Source: Corynebacterium pseudogenitalium
GTDB taxonomy: Bacteria; Actinomycetota; Actinomycetes; Mycobacteriales; Mycobacteriaceae
Assembly: GCF_024453815.1 (NCBI RefSeq)
Contig: NZ_CP072934.1
Location: forward strand, 310,001 to 374,000
DNA length: 64,000 bases
Direction: 5' to 3'
A program made the position numbers and the translations under genes. Positions 2,023-28,720 of the stretch are shown piece by piece; position 1 is the stretch's first letter; the number at the start of each line of letters is the position of its first letter. The notes beneath the pieces were generated by a model that was not told the DNA's origin, did no database searches, and worked only from the letters and a program-made list of their open reading frames with translations.

Positions 2023-2784
2023 TTACGTGGTGCAGGGGCGTGCAGCGATTAGCCTGGGAACATCGCTGTTTTCTGCTAGCCAGGCGGCCAACTTCGGGTC
2101 AAGCATCCTGGCAAGCTTCAGGGTCTCCTCGTGTGCCTCCGTGCAGGTCATACGGTGAGGCTGTCCAGGCATCGGGAAACCTCTGATGAGCGGTTCATGG
2201 TGGGCTACACGGTTTCGAATGCTATTGACTCGCTTGCAAATCCCGTGCACCCAATCTCTGGTGAAACCAGCATGTTGCTGTCTTGCTACGTTTCTTCCTT
2301 CAGGGAAAGCATGACGTAGGGCGGCTTCCCAGTTGTGCTCGTAATTGACGCGGACCCGTCTGGGAGACTTGCCTGTATGTCCTCCTTTGTCAAAGAGGTT
2401 CGTCCAAAAACCAAATGTACAGTTAGCGAAAAGACGCCCGGGAACATCACCATCGTTTGGACGCTCACGTACCCTCCTGGAAAGTTGCGACCAAGCCACC
2501 GCAAGATTCTGCTCTGACCGTTCATCCAACGGGATATCGAGGTACCAGTGGCTGCCCCATTTTGCAGCTGCCGCTTTATTGATCGATTCCCGTAGTGCAA
2601 CTTCCAAAATGGCAATATCCGCTAGAAATGCAGTAGATAGCTTGATGTTCCATATGTAGAGCTCGAGGGCTTCGTCTATGTTGCCGTTCGGCGATTCGCT
2701 AAGAAAACTGGCTAAACGAGCGGGCGGGAGAGAACCCCAAAGCAAGGCTGCATTTGTCGAAGGCAGTTGTGTAGGAAACGTCAT
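2023..2784 (-). CDS. Abi-like HEPN protein
   Basis: 253 residues, mostly helical. The segment SIRNRVAHHEPL (about residues 188-199) holds R190-N-R-V-A-H195, the R-x4-H motif of HEPN ribonucleases. The protein belongs with Abi-like (AbiD/F-type) actinobacterial proteins, in which HEPN domains commonly act as abortive-infection RNases. No strong ribosome site precedes the ATG. A TATAGC-like -10 lies about 5 nt upstream, so the message may be leaderless. It is transcribed toward the ATPase-BRCT gene with about 100 bp between them, which permits a shared transcript. An IS inserted upstream starts about 120 bp away. Family placement is fairly sure; the biological target is unknown. Confidence 0.75.
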   Translation of the reverse strand: MTFPTQLPSTNAALLWGSLPPARLASFLSESPNGNIDEALELYIWNIKLSTAFLADIAILEVALRESINKAAAAKWGSHWYLDIPLDERSEQNLAVAWSQLSRRVRERPNDGDVPGRLFANCTFGFWTNLFDKGGHTGKSPRRVRVNYEHNWEAALRHAFPEGRNVARQQHAGFTRDWVHGICKRVNSIRNRVAHHEPLIRGFPMPGQPHRMTCTEAHEETLKLARMLDPKLAAWLAENSDVPRLIAARPCTT

Positions 2785-2893
2785 TGCTATAGGCTAGCCA
2801 ATGTAGTCCCCCGGATCCGGACCATAGTTAAATGTCTATGGTTCCCGGGGGTTTTATTATTCTGAAACGCTTATCGGGTGGTAGCCGGATGAT

Positions 2894-2901
2894 GACGTTG
2901 C
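2894..2901. repeat. Target-site duplication, left copy of IS1249-like element
   Basis: GACGTTGC is repeated exactly at 4400-4407. The two copies directly abut the IS ends. Confidence 0.92.
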
Positions 2902-2942
2902 GGGTTAAGCGACAAAATGTGTGCTTTTCTCGGCGTGTCGAC

Positions 2943-2967
2943 TTAAGTGACAAAATGTGTGCTTTTT
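2943..2967. repeat. Second, internal copy of the IS left end
   Basis: A 25-bp direct repeat of the terminal sequence begins TTAAGTGACAAAATGTG, 38 bp inside the outer left end and differing from it by one early base (GTGA for GCGA). The right end has only one copy. It may be a second transposase-binding site or a nested end. Confidence 0.8.
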
Positions 2968-3008
2968 CAGGGGCTGGGATGGGTGGGTTGTGGGGTGTTG
3001 TGCTGGGG

Positions 3009-4235
3009 TTATGAGCGTCCTGCCCAGCCGTGTCGGATGGCCCAGGAGGGGTTGAAGTCGGTGTCGATGCCGGTGTCGTAGACTTTCGGTCGACCGTCGG
3101 GTGAGTTGGCTTGGTCGCGTTCACGCATGTGTGCCTGGCGGGCGTGTGCGTAGCCTGCGTGGCCGAAGTCTTGCTCGATTGCTAGCGCCAGCGGGTCATC
3201 GTGGTGTTGGGTGTGCAGGTAGAGCCACCAGTCCATGATGATTCGCTGGTGTTCGTCAAATGTGCCGCGGTGGGCTCGGGCGAGGTGTTTTAGTTGTGCG
3301 TTTATGCCGCCTTCCAGGCTGTTTGTGGTGGTCTTCAGCGTGGTCGTGGTGCGGTGTGGTGGGTTGAGCCAGACGAAGAGGTGGCCTTGTTGGTAGAGAC
3401 GCTCGAATCGGCGGTAGGCTCTGCGGGCTCTGGGATGGGTGTACCACCATTGCTGGTTGTCGCGGATACGTTTTGGGATCTCTTCTGGGGCGACTTGGTT
3501 GCGGTAGGTGCGTTGTTTGAGCCAGTCACCGTAGAGGTCATGGAAGCGGTTGAGGCGAAGTACCCAGGTGATTGCCTGGTCACGGGTGGTGATGTGGGTC
3601 AGCTGGTTGCCGAGGCGAAGGAGTGCTTTGTGTGCGGTGATTGTGGGTTGGCGTGTGGTGTCTTTGATGGTGTCGCGGCGTACGTGGACGAGGCAGCGTT
3701 GAATGGAGGCGTTTGGCCAGCATTGTTTGATGGCTTTGTGGGCGCCACCGGAGCCGTCTGTGGTCACGACGAGGGGTTCGGCGATCATGTCGAAGAGTTT
3801 GGCGTAGTCGTAGGCGGTTTCTCGTGTGCACCAGTGCCAGGCGACGACGTGCTCGCTGGTTGCAGCGACAAGCAGGCATTTTTTGTGGAAGTAGGTGCCA
3901 TCAATAAAGAGCTGGTCGTAGACGCGGTACGGGTCCGGTTTGCACGGGACGATGATGAACCAAAAGTAGGTGAACCAGCGGATGAGTGTGCGTCTGGAGA
4001 CGTTGTGCGCAGCAGCGACAGCGTCGAGGGGACGCTGGTTGGTGATCCAGTCAATGAAGATGGCAAACCGATATGCGCTGGTCTTGGCTGTGTTGGGGTT
4101 GGTGAAGGTGTGCCCGCAGTCTGTGCAGCGCCATCGCTGTTTTCCGCTGGATGTGGTGCCCATTTTTGTGGCGGTGTGCTCGCATGCCGTGCATAGGGGC
4201 CTGTTGTGTTTTCTCTTTCTGTGTTGAGTTGGCAT
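3009..4235 (-). CDS. IS256-family transposase, IS1249 group
   Basis: 408 residues. An N-terminal zinc ribbon (C15, C18, C37, C40) is followed by a helix-turn-helix-like segment (LDAVAAAHNVSRRTLIRW) and a DDE catalytic core. Candidate catalytic residues are D112 (FIDGTYF), D160 (VTTDGSGG) and E308 (NSLEGG). The IQRCLVHVRRD stretch is typical of the IS256/MULE-like C/H segment. The frame is open from end to end, so the enzyme looks functional. It fills nearly the whole element, stopping about 100 bp from the left end. Confidence 0.93.
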   Translation of the reverse strand: MPTQHRKRKHNRPLCTACEHTATKMGTTSSGKQRWRCTDCGHTFTNPNTAKTSAYRFAIFIDWITNQRPLDAVAAAHNVSRRTLIRWFTYFWFIIVPCKPDPYRVYDQLFIDGTYFHKKCLLVAATSEHVVAWHWCTRETAYDYAKLFDMIAEPLVVTTDGSGGAHKAIKQCWPNASIQRCLVHVRRDTIKDTTRQPTITAHKALLRLGNQLTHITTRDQAITWVLRLNRFHDLYGDWLKQRTYRNQVAPEEIPKRIRDNQQWWYTHPRARRAYRRFERLYQQGHLFVWLNPPHRTTTTLKTTTNSLEGGINAQLKHLARAHRGTFDEHQRIIMDWWLYLHTQHHDDPLALAIEQDFGHAGYAHARQAHMRERDQANSPDGRPKVYDTGIDTDFNPSWAIRHGWAGRS

Positions 4236-4581
4236 GCAGCTGGTTTAACAGTCTGCTGTCATAGCACATCCAACGCCTGAAGTGGTGGACCTTCCGGTCT
4301 ACGGCAGGGAATCCCGATTCAACGAGCACTGTCCCGCCGTAGGCCCAGGCAGGACCTGGAATCCATATCCAAAAAAGCACACATTTTGTCGCTTAACCCG
4401 ACGTTGCGCGGGGTCGCGGTGCCGAAATAATACGAGAGCCCCGGGTGCATGCTTTCGCAGAGGCGCCTCGGGGCGTTCGGGAGTATCCTATCGCGTAAAC
4501 ATGAATGGGGAACGAAGCGTACTGCGTTTAGTTCCGCTTCTTTTACTGCCCTGTACTGATGAGTTCGTCAGTTGAGGAGAA

Positions 4582-4659
4582 ATGCTCATCCCATACTATG
4601 GGAGTGGGGGTTCGAGATTAGTCAGAGTACGGTCAAGCCTCGCGCAGAAAGGAACGTAA
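4582..4659 (+). CDS. Possible 25-residue leader ORF
   Basis: ATG CTC ATC CCA begins 4 nt after a strong GAGGAG ribosome site and runs 25 codons to TAA. The stop lies 6 nt before the next ORF's ATG, a spacing compatible with translational coupling. The peptide resembles nothing recognised. It may be a leader peptide or simply a chance frame behind a good ribosome site. Confidence 0.35.
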   Translation: MLIPYYGSGGSRLVRVRSSLAQKGT

Positions 4660-4665
4660 AGCCCT

Positions 4666-4866
4666 ATGCCAGCATTCTTGATTGAATACCATCGCAAAAA
4701 GGGAACTGTCCGGTGTAAGAAGTTTGATTCGCTTTCTGAGGCTACGCGTGAGCGACTGCGCTTGGATCGATCCAATGCTGACCCCGATGTTGAAATCGTG
4801 GCGGTTGCTAGTGCCAGTGAAGAAAGCCTCCGCCAGTCCCACTCCCGATATTTCTCCGGTGTCTAG
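4666..4866 (+). CDS. Small conserved-looking hypothetical protein (66 aa)
   Basis: 66 residues, charged, no membrane segment. AGAAAGGAAC lies about 12 nt before the ATG. The composition (FLIEYHRKKGTV..., SLSEATRERLRLDR, VEIVAVASASEESLRQSHSRYF) looks like a genuine folded small alpha/beta protein. I recall similar 60-70-residue actinobacterial hypotheticals ending in HSRYF, but cannot name a function. It sits alone between the IS1249-like element and pseudogene debris. Confidence 0.6.
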   Translation: MPAFLIEYHRKKGTVRCKKFDSLSEATRERLRLDRSNADPDVEIVAVASASEESLRQSHSRYFSGV

Positions 4867-4954
4867 CAGATACGTGTCGCAGCTTGTGATGTAATCGACG
4901 TGACGACAAAATATCCCTTCCACCCAGCATTTTTCTTGGATGGAGGGTTTTCTC

Positions 4955-5038
4955 ATGCCCCAGAAGTCGACGGCTAACCCCATCGGCATCACGGCTGCGG
5001 CAGCCCACCAACAACAAAATGTTTACGGAAAAGGCTAA
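4955..5038 (+). CDS. Possible 27-residue small ORF
   Basis: ATG CCC CAG AAG follows GGAGGG at about 7 nt spacing and gives a 27-residue peptide. There is no recognisable family. It may be the broken 5' end of a larger gene, as the flanking sequence is pseudogene debris. Confidence 0.25.
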   Translation: MPQKSTANPIGITAAAAHQQQNVYGKG

Positions 5039-5095
5039 TCAGCACGTCAACGTCAATTCGGAGAAAGAAGCCGATGGGCCGACGCTTCCCCTGCT

Positions 5096-5300
5096 TTACA
5101 ACCCCTCGACTGCCCCGAGAAACACCACAATGAAGTCGCGGTACGTGCCGTGCAGGTCTACGGTGGCACCCGGATAACCCGAACACGTTCCTAAAGGAGT
5201 GTTGTCGGCGATCCATTCTATTGAGCCATAACATTGGCTCGGTGTCCACTGAATGGTTCCCTGTCCCCGGGCGGTACCGTCGACTGATTCTCCAGTTCGG
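5096..5300 (-). pseudogene. C-terminal gene fragment ending DLHGTYRDFI...GAVEGL
   Basis: A minus-strand frame carries the last 40-60 residues of a protein ending in HGTYRDFIVVFLGAVEGL and a stop at 5096. About 60 bp at its 3' end recurs near 14127-14185, encoding HGTYRDIIAGFLGTVEGL. The parent family is not recognised. The upstream part has been replaced by the neighbouring pseudogene. Confidence 0.5.
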
Positions 5301-5329
5301 ACATGAGGTGCTATGGCCAGTTCAGGCAT

Positions 5330-5880
5330 TGAGGGGGGCTGCGAGGGTAGGAGAGAGCGCCTCCATTGTCGCGGTCGGGACCTCCTTGGCCTCTGTGACT
5401 TCGACACGCTGGGTTGGTCGGCACGGTGAAGTGCAGCGCTTGCGTTGCGGGATCGACTGTATAGTCCTTTACCCCGGTCGCCGACCATTTCGCCTTTGTG
5501 GCCAGGGGTTCGCACCGAGTGATCTCGGTGCCGGGTGCCACGTACTCGCCGTACTCGTGCGCGATTTCCGCAGCTTACAGTCGCTGGCTGATCGGCTAAT
5601 CGACGTCCCTGTCCCTTACGACAAAGCGCGTCGACTCCCCAAAAGTCTGTGGTGACGAACCTGCCGTTGACCCAGCGGTTGGCGTTGACGGAGGCTTGGC
5701 AGACGCCGGTGTCGGCGTCGTCGAATTGGACTCCGAGGTTGGGGTGGTGGGTGGCGAGGTCAACGGTGCAGCCGGGGGCGGTGGTGGCGTCGATAGCCTG
5801 GAAGGCGTGCGCGACCGTAACGTTGGTGGTGCACAGTGCGCATAGGGTGGAACACTTTTCGACCTGACGGTATCTTGGGA
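5330..5880 (-). pseudogene. Decayed, internally deleted copy of the surface-protein gene at 10710-11993
   Basis: In shifting frames the minus strand encodes pieces that closely match the intact protein at 10710-11993. They are the signal-peptide end (AHAF.AIDATTAPGCT), then HHPNLGVQFD joined directly to DDADTGVCQASVNANRWVNG, then APGTEIT and GVKDYTVDPATQALHFT. About 560 bp present in the intact gene is missing. The junction falls at a short shared GTCGAA-type sequence, which suggests deletion between microhomologies. At least two frameshifts follow. There is no DtxR-like box in front of it. Confidence 0.82.
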
Positions 5881-5968
5881 ACTTTCTTCGTGGGTAGGCC
5901 GTCGTGGCCTGAGGAATATCACGGCTGGTCGACCGGAACAGGCCTAAAAACCGAAGTAGTTCCCAAGT
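5875..5968. repeat. Dispersed intergenic repeat, copy A
   Basis: 94 bp with ends CTTGGGAACT and AGTTCCCAAG in inverted orientation. It contains GGTCGACCGGAACAGGCC. About 88 bp aligns with 50021-50105, estimated by eye at around three-quarters identity. It is non-coding and folds as a long imperfect hairpin. Confidence 0.6.
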
Positions 5969-6106
5969 GAGGGAAGGGTGGTCATTCTAGCCAGGGGAGA
6001 GATTCTATTCTCACGCCTATTCAGAGAATATCGTAATAGAGTACGAAAAGCCTGATGAAGTTATTTCCATCAGACTTTTGTGTGGTGCTTCTTGCTGCGT
6101 GGGAGT

Positions 6107-8821
6107 TTAGATCAATCCCATGCGCCGAAGTCGTGGTTCGATATAGGGCCAGACAAGTGCACCGATGGTCCCGGTGGCGACGATTACGCTGACCACTATG
6201 CCAGCAATTGCGGCAGCGGAGAGCTCAGTCGGGCCATTCTGAGTGTCGTTCTTAGAACTGCTGCTGGCTGTACTTCCGCTTGAGCGCGAAGAGTTATCTC
6301 CTTCTTGCCAAGGGTTGTTCGTGATCTTGCCGTCACTATCGATTTGGATGGCCTCAGTTGGCCGCAAGAAGCTGTTAGCGGAGGCTCCTTGGATGTCTTC
6401 ATCCTCGGTGTATCGGTTGATTGCAGTGACTCGCAGGTCGACTGGATAGCGTCGGTCGAGGTCTGTGATTGTGATTTCTCGGAGATCAGATGCAGTATAT
6501 GCGAGCGGCACGCTGTTGGAAGAGATGAGCCAGCCGTAGTTTGGCTCTGCTGTTGATGCCCATTCGAGTTTCGCAGAATTGCCGTTGTCGATGGTAGCGA
6601 GGTCGATAGATCCAATTGGTGCGGGTTTTGGTGTTTCAGTTCCAATGTGGACTGGTACGGAGTGGGAACCGATGAGGCCATTCGCATCGGTCACACGGAC
6701 TTGCATTTGGTAATCCCCTACTTTGTTGTAGATGTGAGTTCCGATTTCGCCGGCGTCTGTTACATCCCAAGTGCCGTCTCCGTCGAAGTCGTAGTCGAAG
6801 CGTACGATCTCGGACGCTGGTGAGTAAGAGTACAGGCCAGCGTCAAAAGCAAATTCGGTATTTGGTTGGCCTGAATAATCTTTTTGTGGGAGTTTTGCAA
6901 CCGGTCGATTTTGCACTCTGTCAAAGGCATCGCCGATGGCCTGTTTGATGACTTCTGGACTCTTATCGTTCATGGAGATGACTTGGCCAGAGGTTAGGTC
7001 TGCAAGTTCGGTGTAGCGGCGTTGCTTAGAGTTAGGAACGATTGGGTAAATGTTCACTGGATCGATTTCGAGAGAGCGCTTCGCGATGTATTTCGCCGTG
7101 AGCTTTCCGTCGTAAAAGTCGTCGCGACCGAGCTGGCTGCGTCTAATGTTGTCGGTAGTCGGGTCGGGATCTTTGAAACCAGCGTCAGTGAGAAGGAAGA
7201 CAGCCTTAGTTGCGCCATTTTGCCAATCGAGCTTCTCAAAAGCGGTGTGCAGTCCGTACAGCGCTGTCTCATCAAAATCTCCCCATGCGCCACCACCTCG
7301 GCTGGTATCGATACCGTCGAGTTTGTCGAGAAAGTGCTCGCGGGTGTCGCTGAAATCAGAAAGGACACAGGCAGTGTCTACTGTTCCTGCTGGAATTTTG
7401 CAGTCTTCGATGGTTTCCCAGCCGGGTTGGTACGTTGAGTGATCTTTATATTCGACAAGCGCAATTCGTGTTTGGCTGCTGTTGTCGAGTTCTTTGGCTG
7501 TTTCCCTTACGAACTGCTTTACACCTTCAATGTACGGTTGCATTGAGGTTGTGGAGTCTATAAGAAATACGAGGTCTTGTGGGGTTGACGCATCTGTAGT
7601 TTCACTAGGCTTGAGGAGATTTTCGCTTTTAGATAATGCGATTGATACGTTTCGTTGGATCGTGCGCTGGCTGGTGTTATCGCTGATGCTGCCGTTGAGG
7701 CGCATTTGCGCTTCAATCATGGCTTCTTCTAGCGGAATTCTGCCAGAAGCAGAGTTCTTACGGGCCAAGTCATTGTGATATTTGTGGCCCTCAAGCGTTA
7801 GTGGGTTTTTAGATGATCCACAAACAAAGTCGTTATCGTTGCACCAAAGACCGGTTTTGTAGTCTACTTGCGCATTGAGGTATGGCAAACGTGGTTCCAA
7901 CGACCCGTTGTCTGTTCTGCAATTTTTAACTCCTCGCCTCCAGAGGCTTGAGCTTTTACCCGAGCATGCTGGAGTTCCGCCAGCTTTCCATTCTCCTTCT
8001 GGAAGGTGGAGTTTCGGATCTCCTAGCAGGGCAGAAAAAACAATGTGTTCGCGCAGGTCAGGGCGTAGACCAAGTGAATATCTTTCAATCAAGGTGGAAT
8101 CGTAGTTGTCTGGCTCCACTCCAGGCCAATCACGGTGCGGTTTCTTGCTATCAATCAGGAGATGTCCATTTACTGCCTGGTCGGTGGCGATGGTATCGCC
8201 AACTACTTGAGCACCTTGAGAGAAGCCGAAAAGCAGGAATTTGGGTGTGATGTCAATCTGTTCGCAAACATTTACACGGCGCTCGATCAGGTTTGTAAGT
8301 TCTGCCACGCCCGTCCATACACTTTTCCCGTAGCGGTGGCCATAACCAGCTGAGATTCGAGCACCGAGCGAATTTAGAATACGAGGAGTATGGAAGTAAG
8401 CCTCGTCTTTGACTGGTTCATTTAGATCAGGGGCTTTTGTACCTACAGTGGCGGCTGGGTAGGTCAACGCTGGCGGAATCGAGCGGTGGCTCTCATCTGC
8501 TGCTTCGATGCCTGCTTGGGCTGCAGCCCTGTCGAACACGGCATATTTTTCGGAATTCTCGTACCCATCTCCAACGAATCGACCTAGTTCCAGAAGATTA
8601 GCGCTGTCAGGGGCAATGCCTAGATATTCTTTGGCATACTTCTCCATCTGCCGCACACTTTGATCATTTCTTTCAACTCCCGAACCTCGCACCCAAATAG
8701 CTGTAGGCGTGGAGCAGAGTGTTTGAAGATCAGCTTGGATATCTAATGCATCGGCCGGAGAGGTTACCAATGCCAGGGAGATGCTTATAACCGACATGAT
8801 TGCAGTCGTACGTTTGAACAA
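6107..8821 (-). CDS. Secreted cutinase-like / VWA / PKD surface protein with C-terminal anchor
   Basis: About 904 residues from a TTG start 9 nt after AAGGA. This start gives a proper signal peptide (LFKRTTAIMSVISISLALVTSPADA), whereas the longer reading from 8878 adds a Cys-rich non-signal leader. Residues about 30-365 are cutinase-like: nucleophile S201 in GFSQG, and the later WCNDNDFVC and GHKYH supply plausible Asp and His. Residues about 415-640 form a von Willebrand A domain with MIDAS-like DSTTS at 422-426. A PKD-like domain (about 655-725, FDYDFDGDGTWD) and a further beta domain follow, then a low-complexity Ser linker, a membrane helix (about 868-890) and a short basic tail. There is no LPxTG. 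Base composition is lower in GC than the men region, suggesting transfer. A role in lipid hydrolysis or adhesion is inferred. Confidence 0.85.
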   Translation of the reverse strand: MFKRTTAIMSVISISLALVTSPADALDIQADLQTLCSTPTAIWVRGSGVERNDQSVRQMEKYAKEYLGIAPDSANLLELGRFVGDGYENSEKYAVFDRAAAQAGIEAADESHRSIPPALTYPAATVGTKAPDLNEPVKDEAYFHTPRILNSLGARISAGYGHRYGKSVWTGVAELTNLIERRVNVCEQIDITPKFLLFGFSQGAQVVGDTIATDQAVNGHLLIDSKKPHRDWPGVEPDNYDSTLIERYSLGLRPDLREHIVFSALLGDPKLHLPEGEWKAGGTPACSGKSSSLWRRGVKNCRTDNGSLEPRLPYLNAQVDYKTGLWCNDNDFVCGSSKNPLTLEGHKYHNDLARKNSASGRIPLEEAMIEAQMRLNGSISDNTSQRTIQRNVSIALSKSENLLKPSETTDASTPQDLVFLIDSTTSMQPYIEGVKQFVRETAKELDNSSQTRIALVEYKDHSTYQPGWETIEDCKIPAGTVDTACVLSDFSDTREHFLDKLDGIDTSRGGGAWGDFDETALYGLHTAFEKLDWQNGATKAVFLLTDAGFKDPDPTTDNIRRSQLGRDDFYDGKLTAKYIAKRSLEIDPVNIYPIVPNSKQRRYTELADLTSGQVISMNDKSPEVIKQAIGDAFDRVQNRPVAKLPQKDYSGQPNTEFAFDAGLYSYSPASEIVRFDYDFDGDGTWDVTDAGEIGTHIYNKVGDYQMQVRVTDANGLIGSHSVPVHIGTETPKPAPIGSIDLATIDNGNSAKLEWASTAEPNYGWLISSNSVPLAYTASDLREITITDLDRRYPVDLRVTAINRYTEDEDIQGASANSFLRPTEAIQIDSDGKITNNPWQEGDNSSRSSGSTASSSSKNDTQNGPTELSAAAIAGIVVSVIVATGTIGALVWPYIEPRLRRMGLI

Positions 8822-21881: not shown

Positions 21882-23892
21882 TTATTCTCGCAGCCCCTCC
21901 ACGATCCGCACCGTCTCCACCGCAACCCGCGTGACCTTGCCAATCAGATCCACGATGTAGCGCGGGTTGCCAACCTCATCGGCCCAATCGTTCGGGTCGT
22001 TGACAATCCCGGACGCCTTGTCCTTCTTCACCTGGTAGCGATCAATCAGCCACGCCAGCGCAGAGCGTGACCCCAGCATGTACTCATCAGCCTCAGCCGG
22101 GATACCGGTGATGGTCACGCGCTTGTTGTAAATCAACTTGGTCACGTCGTTGACGTTCTTACCCGTCTCTGGGTCCTTCTTGCGTGCCCACTTCATCTTC
22201 AACACACGCCAGGTGTCTGGGTCGGACTCGTCGCCCTTGACCGCGATGTCCAGCGGGTACGGCTCCACATCCTCGTACCCAACGTGCAGGTCCATGAGTT
22301 CCTTGCCGGCGCGCGCAAACTTGTCGAACTCTTCCCGCGTTCCCGGTATCTCAATGTGCGGCAGCATCTTTTTCAAGTCCGTCGCGTACGCCTCCCGATA
22401 GTTCGGGTCGTGCAGCTTGCCGTAGACGAAGTGGAAGATGTCGTCACCAGTGACATCGGCACCCAGCGCATCGCGGTAGAGCGCCTTGATCGCATCAGTG
22501 ATGTTGTCCTTGCGCACATGCCCCGCAACAACCTCACCGACCTGCCCATACATCGAGGATTCACCCTCGCTTATCGACGCCCCCTCGCCAAACAACGCAC
22601 CATCCGAAGCCTCAACGAGCTCCCAAGTGAAGCGTGGGAAGAACTGTGTTCCTTCTGAGCCAAACAGATTAAGGTCAAGGAGCATATCAGCTGCAAAAAT
22701 ACTGTAAGGCTTCACTGCGCCCACGGTCATCTGGGCAAACCCAATGTTGTGGTGGTGCTGCGTCGGGAACATCGACGGCAACTGGTACACCATGTCGTTG
22801 AGTTCTTTCGCAAAGTAACTGCGCTGTTTGAAAAACGGGCGGTACAACGAGGTGTAGACACGGTCCGTATCGACCGTAATCTCGGTTCCGCGGGCTAACT
22901 CCTGTTTCAGGCTGCGGTTCCATGAACCTTTCGCGCTATCGACTAACTCAGGATGCTGCGCAAACAACGCGTCAACACCCCGCTTGTTTTCTTCAAACCC
23001 CTCGGCTCGCAACACAGCCTGTGCCTGGTTGTAGTTCGCGATATGCGTGCCGATATTCTCCGCTAAGTCAAAGGTGGAAGAAGAATACGACCACGCATCA
23101 CGCGCAGTTGAAAGGCCACGTGAATGCTCTTCAAAGAACTTCGTCGCATCACCCTTCTTCTCGCCGATGACCGGCCAGGTCGCGAACTCGTCGCTGCGCT
23201 GGTTCAACCAATCACCGTGCTGATTCGGGGTAATTGAACGCCACTGAATCTGGCCCACCGTCGCGTTTTCAACAAACGCCAGTTTCTCATCGCGGTTTTG
23301 ATAATCAGCCGTTTGGGCATAATGCAGGTGGAAGCCGGTCTTGGAAGGATCCTTCACACCGATCAGCACCGCAACGCCAACCCGGATATCAAAGACATTG
23401 TCGCCCTCACGCTTGGCTTGTTCGCCACCACCCAAAGAGTTGCCGCGCAGATTGAAAACATAGAGGTCGGTGAAATCCTCGGCCATCGACAGGCGGACAC
23501 CATCTCCGGTGTTGCCGTCTACCCAGCCGTTATTTGCGATAAACGCCACGACGCCATGATCCCCGATTCGGTCCGTCGCCCACCGGAATGCGCGCAAATA
23601 TGAGTCGTATAGCGAGTTCTTATTCGTCGCCGTTGACTTCGCCGCGTACGTCTCCGCGATACGTGCATCCAGCGTCGGGTACTTCAGGTTCGCGTTGTTA
23701 TCGTTCGCGCTTGCCTGGCCCACCGAGTACGGCGGGTTGCCCACGATGACATTGATCGGGGCTTCCTTCTGGCGAACAATGCGTTCGTTGTTGTTCCTGA
23801 ATACCGTGAGGTCGAGGATGTCTCCTTCCTCGTGGATCTGGAATGTATCTGCAAGCGCGATGCCTTCGAAGGAAACATAACGGGGGGGGGGG
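21882..23892 (-). CDS. Type ISP restriction-modification enzyme, methylase/specificity part (out of frame)
   Basis: About 667 residues continuing the reading frame broken at the C tract. It opens RYVSFEGIALADTFQIHEEGD and has the N6-adenine methylase motif IV NPPY (IVGNPPYSVGQ), then a long C-terminal target-recognition region. With 10 rather than 11 C in the tract, this joins the upstream part without any other change. No independent start or ribosome site is evident. As assembled the methylase lacks this half, so the system is presumably off in this state. Confidence 0.88.
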
Positions 23893-26838
23893 TGCGCTTT
23901 CGCAGCGTTTGGCGGCCTCAGCCTGCAACGCGTTAAACGTCGTTTCGATGTTGACGGCCGCGACGTAGTATGCCAGCAAAATGATCTCGGTGGCGTGCAA
24001 CTCGTTGGCGTACTTGCGCGCCAGATCCTTCGGATCAATCAACCCGGACTGCAGCAGGCGGACCATAAAGGTGCCCGTGCCCGTAAACGGATCCAGAATA
24101 TGCACGCTCTCATCGCTTAAACCCCGGCCGAAGTGTTGCCTCGACACATCGTCGGCGGCGCGCAGGATAAAGTCCACGATCTCGACTGGGGTGTAGACAA
24201 TGCCCAGCTTGTCAGCGTCGCGCTTGAACGCCTTCTGGAAGAAACGCTCATAGAGCTCCTTGATCACCTGCTGCTTCCCGGACGCGCTCGTAACCTCAGA
24301 AGCACGCACACGCACCGAGGCGTAGAACTTCTCCAGCGAATCAGTCTCAGCATCCAGGTCACTGTCGTCGAGGGCGTCGACCATGCGCTGCATGACCTGG
24401 GAGACCGGGTTGTGGGCGGCGAAGTCGTGCTCGCTAAACAGGGCGTCAAATACTGGGGCGGTAATCAGGTGCTGCGAAAGCATGCTGATCGCTTCGTCCT
24501 CAGAAATCGAGTCGTTGAGGTTGCCGCGCAGGCCCTCGACGAAGGTGTCGAACTCACCGCGCAGTGTCGCATCCGCCTGGTCAAGCAGCGCGCGGATGCG
24601 GGTGACCTGCGCCTTGGAGATGTCGGCGACGTCGTCGGCCCAATCCTCCCAGTAGGTGCGGGTACCCACCTTGTCCACCAGCTTGGTATAGATCGCTTCC
24701 TGCCACTGCTCAAGCGAGAACAACGCGATCTGCTGGGCAGTGACCTGGTCGGGTTCGTAGGCCTCGGTCCGCTCGCTGTTCGCGAGTTTCTTCTTCGCCT
24801 CCTGCAAAGGATCCACGACCGGCTGGACGGAAATCGGCAAATCTTCCTGCAGGTTCTCGTTCAGCGAAATCGAGTTCACCTTGGCGTTGAAACGATCATC
24901 GTGCGCACGCAGCGCGTTGAGGATCTGCCACACGACCTTGAACCGCTGGTTGTCGTTCAGCGCCTCCGACGGCGATGTATCCGGCGCCACCGCCACCGGC
25001 AAAATGATGTAGCCGTAGTCCTTGCCTTCCGCCTTCCGCATCACGCGACCAACGGACTGCACCACGTCCACCATCGAATTACGCGGGTTGAAGAACACCA
25101 CCGAGTCGAGGGCGGGGACGTCGACACCCTCGGAAAGGCACCGAGCGTTCGTAAGCACACGGGTCTCATTCGTCGGCATATCCGACTCAAGCCACGTCAG
25201 TTTCGTGTTGCGCTCCAGGGCATTCATCGCGCCATCAACATGTTGCGCCTGCACGTCAAGATCCATGTTCAGCGTCTGAGCGTCATTGAGCACCGCTTTT
25301 TCCTGCAACAACTCGCGATGCGACTTCACCAGCAGTGGGAACGCCTCCGTAATCGCCTTCGATGTCTTGATATCCTTCGCAAACGCTACCGTGCGGCGCA
25401 TCGGCTCCGCACCCTCATCGAAGCCGCCCTTCTTGCCCTGCAACGACCCCGAGCGCTTCGCCAACGCATTCCAGACGCCGATCATCGCGGAGCCCGTCGT
25501 TAAGTTGATGTCCTTGCCGCCAGCGGCGTTGAACTTGCCCATCGCATCAGCGCCCAGTGACTCATCCACAGTCATGATGAGCACCTTGTAGTCCGTCAAC
25601 AACCCCTTATCGACGGCCTCTCCGAACCCCAAACGGTGAAACTCAGGACCGTACACGGCCTCGTCATCCATGGAGTACAGTTCCGCCGAATGCTCGATGG
25701 CCTTGCCCTTCACGGTCTCGTCGAAAAGGCGGGGAGTGGCTGTCATGTACAGGCGCTTCTTCGCCTTGATGTAGTCGTTGTCGTGGATGCGGGAGAAATT
25801 CGACGGATCCTCTCCAGCGAGCGTCGCCCCTGTGGTGCGGTGGGCTTCGTCGCAAATGACAAGATCGAAATCCTCAAGGCCGGCCTCCTGCGCGTCGTGG
25901 ATCGCGGGCAGCGACTGGTATGTCGAAAACACGACGCTCAACCCCGCCGCGCGCTTTCGCTTCGACAACCGCTCTGCAATATCCTCGCCATTCGTCGACA
26001 CGGGCACCTCAAGGTCGTACGAGGCGATATCCTCCGCTTTCTTCCCCACCTTGCTGTCGGAACACACCGCGTAGCTGCGAAGATCGACCTGCGCCTGTGC
26101 CGTCCACTCCTTCAACGATTGCGACAGCAAACTAATCGATGGCACCAAAAACAGCACCCGCGCCTTGCCATATTGTTCCTTTGCAACACGCTCAGCCAAG
26201 CGCAGCGCGGTGAACGTCTTCCCCGTACCGCAGGCCATAATCAGCTTGCCGCGATCGTGCGCCTTGAACCCCTCCAGCGACTTTTCAATCGCCGTCGCCT
26301 GATGTGGGCGTGGCTCAAACGTCTCCCGCAAGGTGAGGTTCACCGACATCTCACTGCCTGGGTAGGCGATATCCCAGTTAATCGGGGACTCCGCAATCGC
26401 CGACGTGCCGATCCGGTTCGTGGCGATCAACTGGTTCTCCAACATCGCCTCAGCATTCGACGACCAACGGTCCGTCGTCGAAATGATCAGGCGGTTCGCA
26501 AACTGCTCCACCCCACGATCAGTGTGGAACGAGCGCCCCGATGCCTCAAAAAACGAATCCAGCTGCCCCTTCTGGATATGCGTCGTAGGCAGGTAAAACT
26601 TGCACTGAATTGCCGTCCACTCGCCGTCATCCACCCGCTTCGCGACGAGGTCAATCCCCACGTCCGCCTTGCCGCCGTTGAACGGCCAGTCCACCCAGCG
26701 GTACACCTCAGAGTATTCACTGGACAGCGTCGGGTCTGTCTTGAAATAATTGACCATCAACTTTTCAAACGCCAGGCCCTGCTCTGACTTCGACGGCAGC
26801 TTGCGGAGTTCTTCGATGGCATCAGTGAATGTCGACAT
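23698..26838 (-). CDS. Type ISP restriction-modification enzyme, nuclease/helicase/methylase N part
   Basis: The true sequence runs about 982 residues to the C tract, after which 60-odd frameshifted residues precede a stop. The start is ATG 26838, with TTG 26844 possible. Domains in order: an Mrr-like nuclease (DVGIDLVAKRVDDGEWTAIQCKFY, D...Q-x-K), an SF2 translocase (Walker A MACGTGKT, DEAH in ICDEAHRTTG, later SVGRVMRKAEG), a helical coupler, and methylase motif I (DPFTGTGTFMVRLLQ). The single-chain nuclease-translocase-methylase-specificity layout and about 1,650 residues in total fit LlaGI/LlaBIII-like Type ISP enzymes. Confidence 0.9.
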   Translation of the reverse strand: MSTFTDAIEELRKLPSKSEQGLAFEKLMVNYFKTDPTLSSEYSEVYRWVDWPFNGGKADVGIDLVAKRVDDGEWTAIQCKFYLPTTHIQKGQLDSFFEASGRSFHTDRGVEQFANRLIISTTDRWSSNAEAMLENQLIATNRIGTSAIAESPINWDIAYPGSEMSVNLTLRETFEPRPHQATAIEKSLEGFKAHDRGKLIMACGTGKTFTALRLAERVAKEQYGKARVLFLVPSISLLSQSLKEWTAQAQVDLRSYAVCSDSKVGKKAEDIASYDLEVPVSTNGEDIAERLSKRKRAAGLSVVFSTYQSLPAIHDAQEAGLEDFDLVICDEAHRTTGATLAGEDPSNFSRIHDNDYIKAKKRLYMTATPRLFDETVKGKAIEHSAELYSMDDEAVYGPEFHRLGFGEAVDKGLLTDYKVLIMTVDESLGADAMGKFNAAGGKDINLTTGSAMIGVWNALAKRSGSLQGKKGGFDEGAEPMRRTVAFAKDIKTSKAITEAFPLLVKSHRELLQEKAVLNDAQTLNMDLDVQAQHVDGAMNALERNTKLTWLESDMPTNETRVLTNARCLSEGVDVPALDSVVFFNPRNSMVDVVQSVGRVMRKAEGKDYGYIILPVAVAPDTSPSEALNDNQRFKVVWQILNALRAHDDRFNAKVNSISLNENLQEDLPISVQPVVDPLQEAKKKLANSERTEAYEPDQVTAQQIALFSLEQWQEAIYTKLVDKVGTRTYWEDWADDVADISKAQVTRIRALLDQADATLRGEFDTFVEGLRGNLNDSISEDEAISMLSQHLITAPVFDALFSEHDFAAHNPVSQVMQRMVDALDDSDLDAETDSLEKFYASVRVRASEVTSASGKQQVIKELYERFFQKAFKRDADKLGIVYTPVEIVDFILRAADDVSRQHFGRGLSDESVHILDPFTGTGTFMVRLLQSGLIDPKDLARKYANELHATEIILLAYYVAAVNIETTFNALQAEAAKRCESAPPPPLCFLRRHRACRYIPDPRGRRHPRPHGIQEQQRTHCSPEGSPDQCHRGQPAVLGGPGKRER
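23882..23892. repeat. 11-bp poly-G tract inside the Type ISP gene
   Basis: Eleven consecutive G on the plus strand (C in the coding strand) sit exactly where the frame breaks. Ten (or 7, or 13) would restore one continuous frame through ESAPPPRYVSFEG. This is a classic slipped-strand contingency tract. Confidence 0.9.
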
Positions 26839-27179: not shown

Positions 27180-28103
27180 TTAGGCGCGCCAGAGAGGCAA
27201 CTCGCGCCAGTTGCCAGGTGCGCCTGTGCGAGAAATCGGCACGATGGGATTGTGCGGGTAAGTGTCGAAGAGCTTCGGTAGCCGGTCGGCTGGGGACAAG
27301 CCCAGTTGGCGGTGCAAGTATTGGATAAGGGAGAGCTGCCCGAACACGCGATTCATTCCTTCAGCTACCGGAGCCAGCCTGACGTCATTGTTCAGTTTCG
27401 GTTTGATGTCGTAAACGCGGTTGAACATCCTCGCATGATGAGCTGCGTAGTTGCGCAGAATATTCAAGGATTTCAGCCATGATTCGAGCTGAGGACCGGT
27501 TAGGCCGCAAGGGTGGGCAATCCGGTTGCGCACGATATTGGGCGACATGCCGTACAGGTATGACAGCATTCCCCAATCCATGATTTCGACGGCCGCCCAG
27601 ATGGGTAGAGTCCCGCCATATTTGGATTTATGGTGGGCGACGAAGTCCTCCTTCGACGCTTTCAATGCCGACTGGTACTTTCTCACTCATACCTCATGCA
27701 CGCTACGCCCGTCTTTGTTTCGTTGCCGTGCCCGGGCGCTCAAACGTTGAGGATCCAAATAGATCAGCGGGTCAAGGCGGCCCAGTTCGTGACCGAGCTT
27801 GGTTCGAATAGCCAACTCCACGCGATCAAGCTCGATGAACACGCTGTGGCGCAATTGTTCGTCAAACCCATAGAGCGCTACCACCAGGTCAAACGACGCT
27901 CCGTCAACGAATTCATCTCGGGCGGTGCCGTCGCCTTGGGAGAAGCGGCGCATCGGGTACCAGTATCCGGACAAGCGGTAGTAGTTCAATCGCGCCAGCA
28001 GCATCTCGGCATGCTCGGGATCATTCACTCGCATCCCACGCTGACGAAGCAATTCAACCTGTTCACCGTAGGTCTTGAACTGCTTTACCTGCTCCACGCG
28101 CAC
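27180..28103 (-). pseudogene. Abi_2 family (AbiD/F-like) gene interrupted by one in-frame TGA
   Basis: From a GTG after AGGGGG, the frame reads VKQFKTYGEQVELLRQRGM, then LLARLNYYRLSGYWYPMRRF and YGFDEQLRHSVFIELDRVELAIRTKL, to HEV and TGA (27687-27689). The very next codon begins VRKYQSALKASKEDFVAHHKSKYGG in the same frame and runs to 27180. The whole matches one Abi_2 protein of about 307 residues; a TGG (Trp) to TGA change explains the break. HEPN-like R-x4-H motifs (RNRIAH, RNYAAH) lie in the second half. Separate expression from the GTG at 27686 is possible. Confidence 0.82.
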
Positions 28104-28189
28104 CCCCTGTTTGATACGAAAAACGAAGACCGGCCCTGGACTCCCACCGAGGCGGGCAGCGGAACCGGTCATGTTGCTTGCAAGGCTAC

Positions 28190-28720
28190 CTAGTTGACGA
28201 CGGCGAAGCAAGAACACGGGGCACAGAGCCATCGGTACGTTCACACACCAGTGTGCTCTCTGATCCGTCCGGGTTCGTCGGTCCTCGGGGGCGTATGGGC
28301 GAGAGCCTTCCTCACGCTGTGTCCGGTTTCCCAATCACCCAGGTGACAGAGTCTGAGGCGTATGCGGGGTCGAAGCGCCGCCTGGCGGCCAGGTTCGAGT
28401 TCTTTGACCAACAGGCGTTCGATGCTGGCAGGTTCATCCACGGCGCCACTAACCCGAGACCACCATCCACGACGGCACGAAGCTGCTGGACGCCTGGCTG
28501 GACGAGGCCGACGGGATTGACCAGTTCGGCCGGAAAGCATCCCTGTGCGAACCGGCCCGGTCGGATCACGAGCGGAGTCGATCTGGAATTCGGCGTGCCG
28601 GTTCGCCGCCAAGGTCGAGGCACAGCCGGGTTATCTGTCGCCGGAAGCCTACGCGGAGCTGACGAGCCTACGACCGGATGATTTTACCGATGTGGGGCAA
28701 GCATCCGTGCTTACCGCAGA
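28190..28720 (+). other. About 530 bp of gene debris, no intact gene
   Basis: Scraps of plausible coding sequence occur in different plus-strand frames (SKRRLAARFEFFDQQAFDAG; TIHDGTKLLDAWLDEADGID), consistent with a frameshifted phage or plasmid gene. I cannot identify the parent. Confidence 0.35.

Follow-up and report, generated by a model that had tools for sequence, protein, structure and literature searches.

A Type ISP gene split at a homopolymer tract

The window, a 64,000-nucleotide stretch of a 2.39 Mb single-contig genome of Corynebacterium pseudogenitalium, contains a long minus-strand restriction-modification gene that occupies two reading frames meeting at a run of cytosines:

21882..26838, minus strand: Type ISP restriction-modification gene, its two frames split at the tract (open reading frames, Pfam, PDB sequence match)
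23698..26838, minus strand: N-terminal open frame of 1046 aa, with its ATG at 26838
26350..26742, minus strand: Mrr_cat_2 nuclease domain (PF13156), residues 33-163 (Pfam, coordinates converted)
25729..26319, minus strand: ResIII/SF2 motor domain (PF04851), residues 174-370 (Pfam, coordinates converted)
25033..25281, minus strand: Helicase_C (PF00271), residues 520-602 (Pfam, coordinates converted)
24280..24654, minus strand: ISP_coupler (PF22240; Pfam)
24067..24093, minus strand: DPFTGTGTF, upstream of the tract, which we take to be methyltransferase motif I
23882..23892, minus strand: homopolymer tract of 11 C on the coding strand (11 G on the plus strand), the proposed slippage switch
21882..23893, minus strand: C-terminal half, which lies in the other frame and extends from tract to stop
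23727..23738, minus strand: NPPY, downstream of the tract, presumably methyltransferase motif IV
21945..23138, minus strand: Type_ISP_C specificity domain (PF18135; Pfam)

The N-terminal frame resembles its protein family to about residue 985, beyond which the tract leads into a foreign, out-of-frame tail that stops at 23698; in the C-terminal frame, which stops at 21882, family-like residues start at the tract itself. A sequence-only reading of this DNA had proposed that one gene is split solely at an 11-G run and that its halves can be joined through ESAPPPRYVSFEG with no other defect. Both proposals hold: the plus strand has exactly 11 G at 23882-23892, the sole homopolymer of at least 8 in the window; neither half contains an internal stop; and ESAPPPRYVSFEG is found as such in two natural in-frame relatives, L002 and L004. 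The window gene thus contains a repeat tract inside its coding sequence whose length sets the reading frame.

Pfam places Mrr_cat_2, ResIII, Helicase_C and ISP_coupler in the first half and Eco57I and Type_ISP_C in the second, and a profile search finds no match to Type_ISP_C in the genome other than the window gene. Among PDB sequences, the N-terminal half matches LlaBIII (4xqk; E 1.7e-224; residues 3-973) and LlaGI (5ffj; E 3.4e-203; residues 167-974). Nuclease, SF2 motor, coupler, methylase and specificity domains follow one another in order, and in the in-frame relatives they form one chain. PADLOC ranks a model labelled Type IIG first and one labelled Type I second; preferring the Pfam and PDB results, we classify the enzyme from its domain order and its match to LlaBIII and LlaGI as Type ISP, as originally assigned. 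LlaBIII and LlaGI are likewise single-chain enzymes, running from nuclease through SF2 motor, coupler and N6-adenine methylase to specificity domain, and the text consulted on them mentions no length-variable tract (PMC7049714). When the methylase part of L002 was modelled with AlphaFold (mean pLDDT 67), the PPP stretch came out as a coil between two helices; this model was set aside as evidence because of its low confidence around that stretch.

Upstream, the gene adjoins an Abi_2-like gene (PF07751; window 27180-28334, minus strand) with an in-frame TGA at 27689-27687. Pfam scans of ten neighbouring open reading frames matched this broken Abi_2-like gene, a TetR regulator, an MFS transporter, an IS21 helper and a UbiA prenyltransferase, with no Pfam match for four of the ten; we claim no defence island here.

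Tract length and reading frame among relatives

The closest relatives of the gene come from Corynebacterium sp. NML130628, NML140438 and HMSC29G08, from C. riegelii FDAARGOS_1114 and from a genome of the same species, G135 (Corynebacterium sp. NML98-0116). Sequence across the junction was readable for 43 of the 49 loci that come from named genomes. The tract is present in five of these, while the other 38 have no run of at least 6 at the junction and are in frame there. Tract length and frame vary together among the five: L001 has C9 and is shifted, L002 and L004 have C10 and are in frame, L005 (the G135 gene) has C14 and is shifted, and L003 has C11 beside a gap of undetermined bases. The lengths read from DNA are 9, 10, 10, 11 (the window) and 14, with 11 on each side of the gap in L003. 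In that locus (about 5141-5185), where a C11 run stands on each side of 20 N, the assembly most likely broke at this tract.

Database proteins extend the series. The tract motif appears in 18 of the best 120 of 7999 scored proteins, four further pattern matches elsewhere in the protein having been left out of this count. Length could be inferred for 17 of the 18 (one is cut off) from the residues that follow the prolines, a procedure that assumes CCC codons and admits sequencing and assembly error. Nine are in frame (eight C10 and one C13) and eight out of frame (C6, C8, four C9, C11 and C12). Two pairs bring both states onto nearly the same sequence: P0008 (OFF) and P0011 (ON), a 9-C/10-C pair, show no difference over the 600 residues before the tract in ungapped comparison, and P0007 (OFF) and P0013 (ON) show one. 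Near-identical alleles with ON and OFF lengths therefore exist, as judged from protein-inferred lengths and 600 residues of pre-tract sequence, and each pair looks in effect like one allele in two states. The window gene and L005 are not a pure slippage pair, because besides three additional C in L005 the bases after the tract differ as well.

With lengths of 9-14 in DNA and 6-13 inferred from proteins, the search in relatives returned the length-variable tract that the sequence-only reading anticipated: its length is not fixed at 10 throughout, and the closest relatives of the gene carry it.

Constraint and mosaic structure

Comparison of the window gene with L001, both of them OFF, gives Nei-Gojobori dN/dS values of 0.052 for the N-terminal half and 0.088 for the C-terminal half, in line with the earlier impression that both halves are constrained. 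Across the six tract-bearing genes the second halves have dN/dS of 0.079-0.161 and contain no stops. Both halves are thus under strong purifying selection between OFF copies. Ordinary mutation also causes loss, as shown by L004 (locus L083 of the coupler set below; C. riegelii FDAARGOS_1114, 2201-7147), which has C10 and is in frame at the tract yet carries a TGA at codon 48, and by L131 and L174, with one internal stop apiece.

Compared with L003 or L004 in blocks of 50 residues, the window gene is 48-90% identical as far as roughly residue 800, and identity then rises to 94-98% until the tract is reached. Within the C-terminal halves of L002-L005, some stretches fall to 66-82%. By this pattern of identity the gene is a mosaic, and its alleles may therefore differ in target site.

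Runs in other Type ISP genes

A profile search for the ISP coupler returned 97 matches in 89 of 242 Corynebacterium genomes. All 97 were examined: the window gene, its five tract-bearing relatives and 91 others, 84 of the 97 aligning over more than 1400 residues. This set overlaps the named loci (L083-L087 are L001-L005; L121 is L028, L149 is L038, L181 is L015, L163 is L017, L142 is L007 and L179 is L022). A G/C run of at least 8 lies inside the gene in 16 of the 84 loci, at about eight positions, whereas no A/T run of at least 8 occurs in any of the 84. Residue numbers for the runs are approximate and refer to differing reference proteins:

near residue 223: L163, G8, in frame; L166, G9, shifted
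near residue 228: L172, G10, shifted
near residue 320: L115, G10, in frame
near residue 557: L121, G8, shifted
residues 690-700: L149 and L181, C11, shifted, with differing flanks
near residue 973: L175, C9, shifted
near residue 983: six loci including the window gene
near residue 1100: L189, G11, shifted
near residue 1546: L186, G11, in frame

L163 and L166, which have like flanks, share one common site. Leaving out L084 with its N gap, 10 of 15 loci are out of frame at the run. Conversely, the frame is broken in 15 of the 84 loci, in two of them at N gaps; 10 of the remaining 13 breaks fall at runs of at least 8, and the others at a G7, a C6 and a position with no run above 4. Outside the genus, the reading frame breaks at a G10 near residue 293 in the genes of Actinotignum sanguinis and A. 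schaalii (L039 and L040).

Runs of at least 8 number 17 in 418 kb of these genes (L084 contributing two) against 3 in 300 kb of flanks of the same loci (p = 0.02), and runs of at least 10 number 12 against 0 (p = 0.002), counts in which related loci enter several times. Per independent site, the excess is not significant for runs of at least 8 (about 10 against 3; one-sided p ~0.14, by hand) and persists for runs of at least 10 (7 against 0; p ~0.02, by hand). The central claim of the sequence-only reading, a phase-variable Type ISP gene held OFF, is supported, but the case is not an isolated one, with runs elsewhere in Type ISP genes of Corynebacterium and Actinotignum.

G/C runs in the genome and mismatch repair

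The chromosome contains only five G/C runs of at least 8, with lengths of 8, 10, 11, 12 and 13. Under a first-order Markov model of window composition about 96 would be expected per genome, with 6.7 runs of at least 10 and about 1.8 of at least 11; long G/C runs are avoided overall, and those that survive are long. A run of 10-11 G is not unlikely under this model, and we dropped the existence of the run as an argument: because one 11-G run alone is unremarkable, the case rests on the length series and the frames.

Profile searches of the genome gave no match to MutS_V (PF00488) and one to NucS_C (PF01939), the same profiles matching in 11 of 14 and 7 of 14 control genomes, respectively. EndoMS/NucS cannot correct insertions and deletions (PMC8228993). 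Two reports count against rapid slippage: most short indels may be removed by DnaE proofreading (PMC8228993), and in the actinobacterium P. acnes variation in the 54 homopolymer tracts went with clade, which suggests that changes build up slowly and not by fast switching (PMC4746626).

A slippage switch and its alternatives

We consider it very probable, from the sequence comparisons above, that this Type ISP gene is phase-variable by slipped-strand mispairing and is OFF in this assembly; the isolate itself may be a mixed culture or hold a one-G assembly error. Mispairing at the poly-C tract would change its length by one or more bases, and the NucS-type mismatch repair of the genus would leave such slips uncorrected. 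A tract of C10 or C13 would yield a single chain of about 1650 residues in the order nuclease, motor, coupler, methylase, specificity (ON), while at the other lengths seen translation would end shortly past methylase motif I (OFF). Such an OFF product would keep nuclease, motor and coupler and lack NPPY, a complete methylase and the specificity domain, and we infer that it neither methylates nor cuts. It should not cut because a Type ISP motor needs a recognised site to set off from: LlaBIII begins to translocate only at an unmodified target, and recognition of that target falls to the methylase and specificity domains (PMC7049714). Restriction and modification would therefore both be shut off by a single tract, which may in turn affect phage defence and the methylome. 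The stretch around the tract varies in length across the family, so whole extra prolines are tolerated. A Type ISP fragment of Helicobacter pylori that has the methylase and specificity domains works by itself (PMC3936762), a route that looks closed to the C-terminal half in the window because it lacks motif I.

An alternative is that the tract is a mutational hotspot at which the gene is lost, one break per lineage, the OFF copies being young pseudogenes due to decay. Restriction-modification genes are often lost, and the separate nonsense codon in L004 and the single stops in L131 and L174 are what such loss would leave, as are the five independent inactivations of one restriction-modification system in P. 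acnes, found together with clade-wise tract variation (PMC4746626). Yet the C-terminal halves past OFF tracts are stop-free and strongly constrained, the tract is kept across several species with all three frames represented, and the protein sequence ahead of the tract is identical between a C10 and a C9 allele. The share of loci out of frame at a run (10 of 15, the loci being partly dependent) is, moreover, near the two thirds expected of random length. Taken with these observations, loss at a hotspot seems unlikely.

Homopolymers of this length are also prone to consensus error, and the true chromosomal tract might be in frame, with the gene ON in this isolate. Lengths from 6 to 14 in separate assemblies and contigs go beyond a one-base error, which makes this account of the tract very improbable, and an error in this isolate could hold without touching the phase-variation reading. 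Bacterial transcriptional slippage on A/T runs has been described (PMC1088944), and slippage of ribosome or RNA polymerase at the C tract might in principle supply some full-length enzyme at length 11, as a programmed or leaky frameshift that tunes dosage. Tract lengths, however, are not fixed at one value, and slippage is not needed for the product, because the same stretch is encoded without a run of at least 6 in 38 of the 43 readable relatives; we regard frameshifting of this kind as extremely improbable.

Known phase-variable systems

Phase-variable Type I and Type III systems are known. For a phase-variable Type ISP system we found no report in the literature searched, which lay mostly outside subscription journals, so that this absence is weak evidence. 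The Type IIG enzyme Cj0031 of Campylobacter jejuni is not known to carry a helicase motor. It resembles the window gene as a single-chain restriction-modification enzyme with a coding polyG tract that is absent from homologues, G9 being ON and G10 OFF, and differs in being Type IIG and from a Campylobacter (PMC4889913). In Streptomyces coelicolor the methylase gene pglX, likewise actinobacterial and engaged in phage defence, shows phase variation ascribed to a G tract, which goes from 8 to 7 G in some mutants, with switching at 10^-2 to 10^-4; unlike the one chain considered here, it belongs to the multi-protein Pgl phage growth limitation system (PMC4365076). The H. pylori genes HP0667-0669 and JHP0612-0613 are Type ISP genes with frameshifts, but the two frameshifts in strain 26695 are not due to sequence repeats (PMC3936762).

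If our reading is correct, Type ISP joins the restriction-modification types that switch by homopolymer slippage. A single-chain enzyme would avoid cutting while marking is off, and one tract could therefore give safe, all-or-none control of defence and methylome. Type ISP genes annotated as 'frameshifted' may be live alleles, which matters for transforming these strains and for methylome studies.

Other poly-G runs in the genome and its relatives

The three other runs of at least 10 in the genome all lie upstream of genes, those of a pilin, an adhesin and a secreted protein. In L080 (G000:C1:1986700-1992700; tract 2999-3008, minus strand), a G10 separates TTGGAC from TTAAAT ahead of a SpaA-type pilin gene, which is followed by a sortase-like open reading frame, recognised as such by eye only. 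In G135, the genome of the same species, this promoter carries G12 (L090), and G160 and G161 have G10 in like promoters (L092 and L100). Replication slippage governs pilus genes in another actinobacterium, Bifidobacterium breve, where, in line with the pilin promoter of L080 and unlike the Type ISP tract, the switch acts on surface pili and not on restriction (PMC9187656). In L081 (G000:C1:2047600-2053600; tract 3018-3029, minus strand), a G12 precedes a long gene for a Rib-repeat surface protein by about 160-200 bp. In G160 (L097) and G161 (L101, L102 and L103), runs of G10-G14 stand before genes whose N-termini are alike, and the two of these genes that were checked both have RibLong domains. 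In L082 (G000:C1:2245800-2251800; tract 3042-3054, plus strand), a G13 lies between TTGACA and TTAAAT before a gene for a 177-aa protein, probably secreted, that has no Pfam match; like promoters in relatives have G11 (L093) and G10 and G13 (L099).

On balance we favour a broader proposal, though less firmly than the single switch: that Type ISP genes of Corynebacterium and Actinotignum have gained G/C slippage tracts repeatedly and independently, at about eight positions from motor to specificity domain, since one tract would switch cutting and marking off together and bacteria with NucS and not MutS would be unable to repair the slips. In the C. riegelii group, the Type ISP tract would be one arm of a larger poly-G switch set, with further members ahead of pilin, Rib-repeat adhesin and small secreted-protein genes. 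Such repeated gain would be of more interest than any single switch and, if true, would provide a testable set of switches for the genus.

In G160, in-frame G10 runs also lie in a PF01555 DNA methylase gene, possibly a Type III Mod (L094, tract at 2577, plus strand), and in an HsdM gene (L096, tract at 2519, minus strand). The HsdM tract showed no other length in the 109 readable of the best 120 of 1946 homologues, and with no second allele among these we keep it as a lead and do not count it as a second switching methylase. Further G10-G11 runs, in L091 (G153), L095 (G160) and L098 (G161), fall outside the pattern of runs upstream of surface genes: that in L091 lies inside a Glucosamine_iso-family open reading frame on the other strand, and those in L095 and L098 lie beside other genes.
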